Below are positions 17,134 to 31,606 of a DNA stretch of 64,000 nucleotides, in pieces (the stretch's first letter is position 1; every line of letters begins with the position of its first letter). The stretch comes from Muricea muricata (lineage: Eukaryota; Cnidaria; Anthozoa; Malacalcyonacea; Plexauridae), in the NCBI GenBank assembly GCA_963855995.1, contig OY979726.1, positions 5,686,201 through 5,750,200 of the forward strand, written 5' to 3'. A program made the translations under genes and the position numbers. Below the pieces are notes generated by a model. That model did no database searches, was not told the origin of the DNA, and was given only the letters and a program-made list of their open reading frames with translations.

Positions 17134-17224
17134 ATGAAGCGGGCATCACTATCAATCATTCAACTTACATTTCTTCTATGGTGTAGAGGGATCACAGAGG
17201 CAGAAGGTTATGGTAAAATGCATG
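17134..17224 (+). CDS. Copy 2 exon 1: signal peptide
   Basis: The frame starts [20 protein letters not shown], then [10 protein letters not shown]: a basic N-terminus, hydrophobic core and small residues near 21-23. The donor ATG/gtaagg at 17225 is preferred. An alternative gtaaaa donor at 17213 would remove four residues without changing phase. Confidence 0.65.
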
Positions 17225-29200: not shown

Positions 29201-31606
29201 GGAAATTCGCCCTCCCGGGGGACAGATTTCCTAGGAATATAGCCCCCTTTAGGAATTTCACCCTCCCCCTTCTTATAAATAACTAGGTGAAGGCTATTTC
29301 AGATACCTTGAAGCAGATCGGTCCCAGTACTTTCGTTAATTTCACACGGCCAAACAAAGGTCTTATAATACTTTTGCTATATTAAAACTATTCTCGCTCA
29401 CTGGGACTGTATCTAATTCACCAAATTTAGCTAAAGCGCGAGCCCGAGGAGCGACTAGTAATGGTTGTCGCGCTACGCGCTCCCTCTTTAGCTAAATTTG
29501 GTGAAGTAGTTACAGTCCCAGTGAGTGAGAATAGATGGGAGGGCGAAATTCCTAAAGGGGGCGAAATTCCTAGGAAATTCCCCCCCAGGGGGGCAATATT
29601 CCCAGGAATATCGCCCCCGTGGAGAAGGGGGGGAGCGAATTTCCTAGGGGGGCGAATTTCCTGTGACACCGGTATAATGTAACAACGGTATGGAACATTA
29701 ACAAGGTGTATTTTAAAACGAATCCGAATTTGATTCTCCAAAACTCGAATAAACACACTCTCACCGTTTCATTTTGTGATTATTGTCTAGCCTGATACTT
29801 TTTTCTGCATAACAAGAGGCAGTTGATTCAGGTAAAAAAGTCGGCATTTCAGGTGCTTCAAAATTTCTATTTTTAACCACTCTGCTGCCGTAGGCGTAGC
29901 GGAATTTTAAATCCGCTCCGTTTTCGAACTGGTTTTTTCCGACGTCGGAAAAAGGCAAACGATCATGGGTGATACCGCTGACCATGCTGTGTTAGCTAAC
30001 ACTAACAAATCATTTTCTATATAAGTAATAGATAAAATACGAGCAGCAGATCTGTAAATTGTAAATCCCAATACAGATCTGCCGCGAGTATTTTATCATA
30101 CTTGTGAAATGAAACAATAATTAATGCCAGTTGTTTTTTGTTTTTGTGCCTTGGCGCGTCCAATATATGAATATTAATCAGGAACATTTTTTAACAAAAT
30201 TAATAAATGCATGCTAATTAGGATACAGCTGTGTCATAAGAATACTAATTAGGACATAGCTTTATCAGATTGTTGACCTGTATTAGGGTTTAAAAAGATA
30301 TCATGTTACATAAATGTGGTTCATTTATTGGGTAATTAACTCATGAATTTTGCAACATAATTTTGACAAATTCATCACGAATATCTTCACGAATATAATT
30401 GTTTTGGATAGTTGTTTAGGGACTAGTGAGTGGCTGTTTAGTGAACGACTCTTGGGCAGTACATATATACAAATGGAGACATACACCTTGTCTGAGCCAA
30501 ATTTAGGAACAAGCCCAATTTTCTCTCGGCAGGCGGGGTGAATGATTTGGAAGGAATCTTGTCAGGGCTTTAAAGCCTAGACATAATAAATATAGAATGC
30601 GTCATGATAAATATTCATGATCAGTCACGAGTCACGTCGACTGTATATAATTCATTACCTTGGCAATTTTCATGATAGACTAAGTTTTGATCATGATTCA
30701 AACTTTATACAAGGTTTAATTTACCACAATCTGAGTTTACACCTAGATTATGCAACTGACTAATAAACCAAGTTAAGTTTGCCCCTGCAAAATGAATAAG
30801 TCTTGAAAGTCAAGTCTTCGAATGAACGCGCGAAGTCTAGCGCCTGGCCGATCTTGTATAGCTGTCATGGCGGAAGACGAGATTTTCGGAGATGACACTT
30901 AGAAGAATGACGGGACGGGATAAAAGAAGGGACCGGTATCTGTAGGGTTTTTAATTAAAAACTTGCTATGTCCGCATCGATTTTATTCAAAAAATTTAAT
31001 TATTTTCGAAGAAAATGGACTTTTTACGATTTCTACTTTTTCATGTAAAGAAAGGCAACAATATTTATTGTTAGTTGCAAATACCCAAATTTGTAGTACT
31101 AATTAATTACTCGTGGCGAGATAGCAAAGTAGCAAAAATTAATTAAACTGCAAAGTAATGTTATATAAATAATGTTTTTCTCTAAATAGGATAAAACTGC
31201 AGATGTAAGAAGAGTGTCACAGCCTGAAATCTCAAAATCGGATTTAGAAAACACACCCCTGTCTTCCCGTGAAATGTACAGACTTGGCTTACGTATTGGT
31301 GTTGACTGGGAACAACTAGCTCGTTTGATGAATATAGAAAAAGCTGAAAGAGACGACATACGATGCAACATCCGATACATTGACGCCCGCTCTAAAGCTG
31401 AGAAAATATTAGCGATTTTCAACACCAGCGGAGGCTTCTCGCGTGAAGAGTTAGCTAAACACTTACGCGAAATGAAGCAGTTAAAATTGATTGAACCAGT
31501 GACTACGGGAAAGTGGAGAGCTGTTGAAGTGAGTGAAACTCATCAATGCAACTTCGATATCGCTACCATAGGCTCCAGAGCAAGTAAAATGGGGTTGATT
31601 AACTAA
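17134..31606 (+). CDS. Membrane-anchored ZU5-UPA-tandem death domain protein, copy 2
   Basis: Seven exons join in frame: 17134-17224, 18507-18572, 19620-19745, 20167-21036, 24726-24767, 28235-28527 and 31190-31606. Together they are 1905 nt, 634 residues plus stop. Predicted order: signal peptide (1 to about 23, hydrophobic core [11 protein letters not shown]), a Thr-rich ectodomain of about 40 residues with sequons N39-M-T and N50-D-T, a transmembrane helix (about 62-84) followed by Arg85, ZU5-like plus UPA-like (about 95-384), a Pro-rich linker (385-398), death domain 1 (399-496) and death domain 2 (about 520-600). All junctions are phase 1 until the last, which is phase 0. The cytoplasmic layout resembles UNC5 and UNC5CL, with an extra death domain and no Ig or thrombospondin repeats. 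Adaptor-type death or NF-kB signalling is inference. Introns hold LINE, BEL and MITE insertions. Confidence 0.75.
17623..17758. repeat. (TA)n microsatellite, about 130 bp
   Basis: An almost pure TA repeat in intron 1 of copy 2, ending in TATG/TACATG variants to about 17797. The long Ile-Tyr frames it creates on both strands are not genes. Confidence 0.95.
18008..18165. repeat. 90-bp tandem duplication
   Basis: The segment TAGACTCTAGTCAC...GAGGTTTAGAAGTA occurs at 18008 and again at 18098 with few differences, directly before the hexanucleotide array. Confidence 0.85.
18166..18427. repeat. (TATGTG)n array, about 260 bp
   Basis: A hexanucleotide repeat GTATGT with TATATG and TGTGTGCG variants at its right end, in intron 1 of copy 2. 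It can form alternating purine-pyrimidine DNA and creates spurious Val-Tyr, Cys-Met and Thr-His frames. Confidence 0.95.
18507..18572 (+). CDS. Copy 2 exon 2: Thr-rich mini-ectodomain
   Basis: 66 nt, phase 1 to phase 1, between TTTTCCAG and gtaagt. It codes [20 protein letters not shown] followed by D-T: Thr-rich, with two Asn-X-Thr sequons, consistent with a short glycosylated extracellular stalk. Confidence 0.6.
18664..19014 (-). mobile_element. Zinc-finger LINE N-terminal fragment, 116-aa frame
   Basis: The uninterrupted minus-strand frame starts [16 protein letters not shown] and contains [20 protein letters not shown]. This is the same finger as in the LINE remnant at 16679-16620, and here it lies within a longer open frame. 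It therefore represents the N-terminal region of that LINE family, inserted antisense in intron 2 of copy 2. A second frame at 19029-19313 directly upstream has a hydrophobic stretch but no recognisable domain. Confidence 0.55.
19620..19745 (+). CDS. Copy 2 exon 3: transmembrane helix
   Basis: 126 nt, phase 1 to phase 1, between TTGTTCTAG and gtacat. Basic residues (DDKRSR) precede about 23 hydrophobic residues beginning [20 protein letters not shown], then [10 protein letters not shown]. It reads as a single-pass membrane anchor linking the short ectodomain to the ZU5 exon. Confidence 0.75.
20167..21036 (+). CDS. Copy 2 exon 4: ZU5-like + UPA-like
   Basis: 870 nt, phase 1 to phase 1 (TTCTAG acceptor, gtgaga donor). 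ZU5 hallmarks: [20 protein letters not shown] and [19 protein letters not shown]-like half: [20 protein letters not shown], then [16 protein letters not shown] and LEMRLDFPG. The site equivalent to the His-Phe-Ser autocleavage motif of PIDD1-type ZU5 domains is Thr228-Phe-Ser (codons 20565-20573). Length and order match the copy 1 exon. Confidence 0.8.
21385..21988. mobile_element. 604-bp hAT-like non-autonomous element
   Basis: TIRs AGGCCCTGTTAGGGG and complement are flanked by 8-bp near-identical duplications (ATAAAATG at 21377-21384, CTAAAATG at 21989-21996). Subterminal regions repeat CCTTATACCTAAA-like units. It lies in intron 4 of copy 2. Confidence 0.75.
22522..22855. mobile_element. 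Inverted-repeat element
   Basis: GATACTAATGTTTTC near 22537 faces GAAAACATTAGTATC near 22815, with complementary flanking A/T tracts. A MITE is likely; target duplication not clear. Confidence 0.6.
22856..24725 (+). other. Intron 4 remainder, no gene seen
   Basis: AT-rich sequence with poly-C tracts near 24060 and 24240 of the kind seen in other MITEs here. No coding homology recognised. Confidence 0.5.
24726..24767 (+). CDS. Copy 2 exon 5: Pro-rich linker
   Basis: A 42-nt exon between CATGTAG and gtacgt, phase 1 to phase 1, reading [14 protein letters not shown]. It is supported mainly by its counterpart in copy 1 (3527-3571): the same size class, phase, donor sequence and Pro content. Confidence 0.6.
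25343..27740 (+). mobile_element. BEL/Pao LTR retrotransposon remnant
   Basis: Plus-strand fragments in retrotransposon order: RNase H-like ([15 protein letters not shown], 25529 on), [20 protein letters not shown] (25710-25770), integrase zinc-binding region ([17 protein letters not shown] and CTICRK, 26585-26675), integrase core start ([15 protein letters not shown], 26760) and a C-terminal region near 27250. Direct repeats beginning TGTTATGAATGACGTAAT at 25343 and 27350, alignable for about 110 bp, look like LTR pieces. gag, protease and most RT are missing and many frameshifts are present. It lies in intron 5 of copy 2, same orientation. Confidence 0.8.
25557..25672. repeat. 24-bp minisatellite within RNase H region
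   Basis: About four and a half copies of CGTACGGTGTACTTGGTACT plus ACAT. It is in frame with the BEL RNase H segment, so the frame repeats the octapeptide S-Y-G-V-L-G-T-T. Confidence 0.9.
28235..28527 (+). CDS. Copy 2 exon 6: death domain 1
   Basis: 293 nt, entered in phase 1 after TTTCTAG and left in phase 0 before gtatta. It codes [20 protein letters not shown], then [14 protein letters not shown] and a closing helix [20 protein letters not shown]: death-domain fold signature. It differs from copy 1 by two codons in total length. Confidence 0.8.
28621..28835. mobile_element. Foldback MITE
   Basis: Inverted arms around CCGAACGTTGTATTCCAATA (left) and its near complement (right), outer ends GGGAT/ATCCC. 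The loop contains CCCTAA-like runs. It begins about 95 bp after the death-domain 1 exon of copy 2. Confidence 0.7.
29140..29690. mobile_element. Nested inverted-repeat element
   Basis: Outer arms rich in CCTAGGAAATTCGCCC-like units (29140-29275) face their complements (29535-29675). An inner inverted repeat around TTTAGCTAAA (near 29425 and 29490) is nested within. The ends read CTGGTGTCCCAGGAAAT and complement-like ATTTCCTGTGACACCGG. No open frame of its own. Confidence 0.65.
30022..30108. repeat. Hairpin inverted repeat
   Basis: GATAAAATACGAGCAGCAGA faces TCTGCCGCGAGTATTTTATC with a short loop. Confidence 0.65.
31190..31606 (+). CDS. Copy 2 exon 7: death domain 2 and C-terminus
   Basis: Phase 0 after TCTAAATAG. 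An acidic spacer leads to [20 protein letters not shown], then [13 protein letters not shown], ...[20 protein letters not shown] and TTGKWRAVE. It aligns closely with 5656-5990 of copy 1. The frame continues 29 residues beyond the copy 1 stop to TAA at 31604-31606. A strong gtgagt at 31529 could instead be a splice donor to a further exon. Confidence 0.75.
   Translation, partial: DKTADVRRVSQPEISKSDLENTPLSSREMYRLGLRIGVDWEQLARLMNIEKAERDDIRCNIRYIDARSKAEKILAIFNTSGGFSREELAKHLREMKQLKLIEPVTTGKWRAVEVSETHQCNFDIATIGSRASKMGLIN

Follow-up and report, generated by a model that had tools for sequence, protein, structure and literature searches.

A 64,000-nt window of the Muricea muricata genome (G000:C11:5686201-5750200; all positions below are window positions unless a contig is named) carries, on the plus strand, a gene model for a putative membrane-anchored protein with a ZU5 domain and two death domains, DD1 and DD2. 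The initial annotation had joined seven exons without frame conflict into 634 residues. As read from the sequence, this model holds: all internal borders are AG/GT, and the 1905 nt encode exactly 634 residues and a stop codon. The exons of this focal gene are as follows.

17134..17224, plus strand: exon 1, start codon (ATG) and putative signal peptide; GTAAGG donor, phase 1; similar first exons at three copies on contig C16.
18507..18572, plus strand: exon 2, encoding a mini-ectodomain that is rich in Thr and carries two N-glycosylation sequons; TTTCCAG acceptor, GTAAGT donor; Thr-rich exons also at C16.
19620..19745, plus strand: exon 3, membrane helix; 19-residue hydropathy mean 3.63.
20167..21036, plus strand: exon 4, ZU5 by profile-profile comparison, followed by the stretch where UPA would be expected.
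24726..24767, plus strand: exon 5, Pro-rich linker of 14 residues (42 nt); best splice candidate in a long intron, with counterparts in three other copies.
28235..28527, plus strand: exon 6, DD1, a predicted death domain by AlphaFold2 and Foldseek/VIA; intron phases kept in 8/8 loci.
31190..31606, plus strand: exon 7, DD2 and stop codon; Pfam Death 24.1 bits, E 3.9e-5.

The N-terminal part had been annotated as signal peptide, mini-ectodomain and membrane helix. This is supported by the hydropathy of the helix, by the two sequons and by recurrence at the paralogues; the N-terminus itself is moderately hydrophobic (19-residue mean 1.05), from which the signal peptide is putatively read, and the Thr-rich ectodomain would span about 40 residues. 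In the splice scan of the long intron, exon 5 was the sole candidate above the stricter threshold and the best of four at the looser one; in a tandem copy and in two C16 copies, the same kind of scan ranked exons of 45 and 33 nt highest, and these too contain Pro. A wrong join of the signal and membrane exons onto the ZU5 exon was considered and rejected, since the helix precedes ZU5 at four other loci and a signal-like exon does so at three. Two broken frames, at 14673-16342 (minus strand) and 25500-27550 (plus strand), look by eye like retroelement relics; the latter sits inside the focal gene, in the intron after exon 5.

The two death domains of the initial annotation are borne out. DD2 scores 24.1 bits against Pfam Death (PF00531), above the curated cut-off of 22.6, and 24.8 bits when the exon is trimmed. 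At E<=1, Pfam Death does not match the focal DD1 but does match the DD1 of five of the eight family members (best E 0.0029). The AlphaFold2 model of the focal DD1 has a predicted local distance difference test score (pLDDT) of 74.9 and a six-helix death fold, and its Foldseek/VIA matches are death domains; focal DD1 is thus a predicted death-domain fold. Searches of the PDB by phmmer with DD1 and DD2 returned nothing convincing, the best for DD2 being two CRADD/RAIDD death-domain chains at E 1.9. An assembly duplicate was also entertained as the source of the doubled domain and rejected, as DD1 and DD2 are only 38% identical and eight loci carry the pair.

The initial annotation had further assigned a ZU5-UPA module, and here the two halves fare differently. 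The focal ZU5 exon has no match to Pfam ZU5 (PF00791), and three of the seven rows in the family alignment match it weakly at E<=1 (best 0.0018). Profile-profile comparison (hhalign) of the family with four ZU5 stretches of the same genome, however, scored 39.5 over 118 columns, whereas 100 column shuffles reached at most 20.9 and the reversed profile 18.9. ZU5 homology of exon 4 is therefore supported by profile comparison. Against single proteins the ZU5 profile was weaker in hhalign: probability 27 for L067, another ZU5 gene, and no match to the double-ZU5 protein L068. Against the PDB it gave nothing convincing, nor did exon 4 find a match there by phmmer; a combined profile including L067 had Ankyrin-2 as its top PDB match. 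The UPA half is putative and assigned by position. Pfam and profile searches of this region had no match: against L067 it scored 11.4, below shuffles reaching 20.4. L067 itself (G000:C11:1077500-1079000) has THFS at the PIDD-type cleavage position, with a death domain about 4 kb away at C11:1074127. Elsewhere in the genome, 15 ZU5 matches cluster at G000:C4 2239014-2514305, with no Death match among those listed for that interval.

Whole-genome searches, over 453 Mb in 74 contigs with intron-bearing genes of animal type, placed the gene in a family. The ZU5 exon had eight matches. Two of them lie on C11 and a single weak one (E 0.95) on C6; the remaining five, on C16, represent three copies, two of them whole and the third split with an internal stop. 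DD1 as query gave 16 matches, which make up eight DD1-DD2 pairs, three each on C12 and C16 and the other two on C11; DD2 gave 23 at E<=10, namely those 16 places, three on C2 and four weaker ones. The C2 death domains, which lie outside the eight pairs, are at G000:C2 49123612, 49226598 and 49499505 (E 1e-9 to 1e-5). The second C11 copy is a tandem copy in the same window (2268-5990), with these exons.

2268..3107, plus strand: ZU5 exon, 42% identical to exon 4 over 273 columns.
3527..3571, plus strand: linker exon, sole splice candidate above threshold.
4815..5101, plus strand: DD1 exon, 49% identical to focal DD1.
5656..5990, plus strand: DD2 exon, 64% identical to focal DD2; acceptor phase unlike the other seven loci.

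Its membrane-helix exon lies just beyond the window edge (46% identical to exon 3, E 4e-7), and two Thr-rich exon candidates are found upstream of this copy. The three C16 copies have signal-like and Thr-rich exons before the membrane exon and a Lys/Arg cluster after the helix, a pattern that would fit a cytoplasmic C-terminal part including ZU5. In the tandem copy and all three C16 copies (one broken), the order helix, ZU5, DD1, DD2 is kept. With this order repeated at four loci besides the focal one, the architecture is no product of chance. On C12, the pairs lie at 7348445-7351202, 7360517-7367517 and 7745520-7746225, with conserved intron phases; in the first, a stop interrupts DD2 close to its end. 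Three stretches next to the C12 pairs were searched for a ZU5 domain (some 8 kb upstream of pair 1, the 9.3 kb between pairs 1 and 2, and some 7.5 kb upstream of pair 3), with nothing under E 2.

Intron phases agree across the loci, with one exception. The intron into DD1 is in phase 1 and that out of DD1 in phase 0 at 8/8 loci, the intron into DD2 is in phase 0 at 7/8 (the exception being the tandem copy), and the ZU5 exon exits in phase 1 in 5/5 copies. A tree of 43 death domains comprised eight DD1, seven DD2 (that of the broken C16 copy was left out) and 28 of the 30 domains that Pfam listed across the genome; of the two omitted from this list, one contains a stop and the other is a duplicate. 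All DD1 and DD2 fall in one clade (support 100/96), within which DD1 form a clade of their own (100/99); the branching order among DD2 has no resolution. These clades indicate that DD1 arose once, inside the family, before its copies were spread over C11, C12 and C16. Codon models, from which the broken C16 copy was likewise omitted, gave omega values of 0.57 for the ZU5 exon (four copies), 0.32 for DD1 (seven copies) and 0.43 for DD2 (seven copies). Between the focal and tandem copies, synonymous divergence (dS) is 0.50-0.62 and the nonsynonymous to synonymous ratio (dN/dS) is 0.55-0.78. The frames are kept open at high divergence, yet the proteins diverge fast.

How does this layout compare with known systems? 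UNC5CL (ZUD) is likewise membrane-anchored, with little extracellular part, a ZU5 domain and a C-terminal death domain; compared by layout alone, the focal protein differs in having two death domains, a signal peptide and a Thr-rich ectodomain. The term UNC5CL-like, used in the initial annotation, is thus fair for the layout as commonly understood. The UNC5A-D netrin receptors share the type I membrane layout, the cytoplasmic ZU5 and the C-terminal death domain, whereas the focal protein would have some 40 ectodomain residues, no Ig or thrombospondin repeats and a second death domain. Ankyrins, built as ZU5-ZU5-UPA-DD, have both domain types as well, and one of them came first when the profile including L067 was compared with the PDB; the focal protein has one ZU5, two death domains and no ankyrin repeats in its 634 residues. 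In PIDD1 and in the FIIND of NLRP1/CARD8, a ZU5 module also precedes a death-fold domain, and F-S or F-C occurs at the aligned cleavage position; unlike them, the focal protein appears membrane-anchored, has no sensor part that we could see, and its autocleavage is putative. SH3BP4, the closest homologue of MACC1, has a ZU5 domain followed by two death domains. So does MACC1, which passages in two papers describe as having ZU5, SH3 and two death domains, unlike most ZU5 proteins (PMC11585957; PMC8330891). The claim that known ZU5-death-domain proteins carry a single death domain is therefore rejected, to the extent of those passages on MACC1 (PMC11585957; PMC8330891). Set beside MACC1 by description, the focal protein differs in that the passages on MACC1 report no membrane helix, and in SH3, which MACC1 has between ZU5 and the death domains: exons 4, 6 and 7 have no Pfam match to SH3, and the linker is 14 residues long. 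Focal DD1 and DD2, moreover, are 38% identical and group together in the tree.

In searches of the open-access literature, no ZU5 protein emerged that combines a membrane anchor with two death domains. What looks unusual is the presence of such a pair in a protein with a putative signal peptide, a single membrane pass and a tiny ectodomain, although such proteins may well sit in databases under automatic names.

Given the observed gene structure, paralogues, death domains, ZU5 homology and constraint on the frame, we tentatively favor a functional, fast-evolving, tandemly duplicated gene, the product of which would serve as a ZU5-restrained, membrane-anchored death-domain scaffold working like UNC5CL or UNC5B; topology, autoinhibition, oligomerization, pathway and function are what we infer here. 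The product would be a single-pass type I membrane protein composed of a signal peptide, an ectodomain, a helix, a cytoplasmic ZU5 module, a Pro-rich hinge and two death domains. At rest, the ZU5 module would keep the death domains closed, as in UNC5B, which is reportedly autoinhibited. Clustering or release at the membrane would set the pair free to seed a death-domain assembly with MyD88/IRAK-, FADD- or RAIDD-like adaptors, and the output would be of the NF-kB/JNK type or caspase. Since the pair would raise valency, it would lower the assembly threshold. In NLRP1 and CARD8, according to PMC7794386, UPA promotes death-fold filaments, its oligomerization allowing CARD filaments to form at a lower threshold. 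Because the ectodomain is so small, a co-receptor or relay is more likely than a receptor that binds a ligand by itself. An immune or cell-death role may follow from this picture.

Several points weigh against the scaffold reading. The gene model was read from genomic DNA alone, and autoinhibition and oligomerization are borrowed by analogy from relatives. AlphaFold2 gave no usable fold for the ZU5 exon (pLDDT 31.3), and the Pfam UPA profile (PF17217) has no match in the region after ZU5; that profile also has zero matches in the whole genome, and zero in controls as well. The focal copy lacks a strong Lys/Arg cluster, with basic residues on both sides of its helix. Relaxed constraint is possible, as the focal and tandem copies differ fast. 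Finally, the DD2 acceptor of the tandem copy (5656) is in phase 1, mismatching DD1, so that with those sites the two domains could not be joined in frame; skipping DD1 would stay in frame. The tandem copy thus appears to be either broken at the DD1-DD2 junction or the source of a DD1-skipping product with a single death domain.

Other explanations were weighed on the same evidence. An unlikely one is a role in trafficking or as a scaffold, after the manner of MACC1/SH3BP4 or ankyrins; the ZU5 and death domains would then bind endocytic or cytoskeletal partners, without cell death or immunity. It draws on MACC1, in which, according to a passage in PMC11585957, ZU5 and two death domains go with a link to clathrin-mediated endocytosis. 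The Ankyrin-2 match of the combined profile points the same way, but the Pfam matches of exons 4, 6 and 7 include no SH3 and the focal protein is predicted to be membrane-anchored. It also evolves fast, which is more typical of immune genes. We give less credence to a dominant-negative or decoy that would bind death-domain adaptors at the membrane without signaling: the tiny ectodomain, the copies with and without detectable ZU5 and the rapid divergence would suit it. Nothing speaks against it specifically, except that both death domains are constrained.

It is doubtful, to a greater degree still, that the ZU5 module cuts itself at F-S/C in the manner of PIDD and NLRP1, freeing a fragment with both death domains. 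PIDD and CARD8 self-cut at HF/S and SF/S, and in CARD8 the cut depends chiefly on the Phe and the next Ser and little on the residue that precedes them, as stated in passages of PMC3210808. The aligned site in the copies reads TFS, GFS or EFC, which is compatible with such a cut; the C16 site has Cys, however, HFS does not occur in these copies, UPA is assigned by position, and the required nearby His/Glu could not be placed. Equally doubtful is its extension to a cell-surface family with a self-cleaving cytoplasmic ZU5, in which the membrane-bound half would hold or release the double-death-domain fragment as nucleus for a signaling filament. If autocleavage were true, a PIDD/NLRP1-type release switch would lie within a transmembrane surface protein. 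Least probable, and in our view improbable, is a relaxed or dying gene with open frames and no selected function. The pairwise dN/dS to the tandem copy, the broken C16 copy and the tandem phase shift would speak for it, whereas the seven intact exons with their splice sites and an omega below 1 in all three exons speak against it.

This gene enlarges the group of ZU5-death-domain proteins by a putatively membrane-anchored form with two death domains. In addition, its copies are a natural set for testing the role of the second death domain: some have ZU5, others have no detectable ZU5, and broken and phase-shifted ones occur as well.

The remainder of the window holds other features. Exons at 46530-49189 (plus strand) read by eye as eEF1A. 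An integrase core domain fragment lies at 52949-53299 (minus strand; Pfam rva_4, E 1.7e-28), followed by a TPR protein at 55129-55617 (minus strand; Pfam TPR_1, E 4.6e-18) and a Spc24 kinetochore subunit at 56048-56650 (plus strand; Pfam E 2.2e-11).

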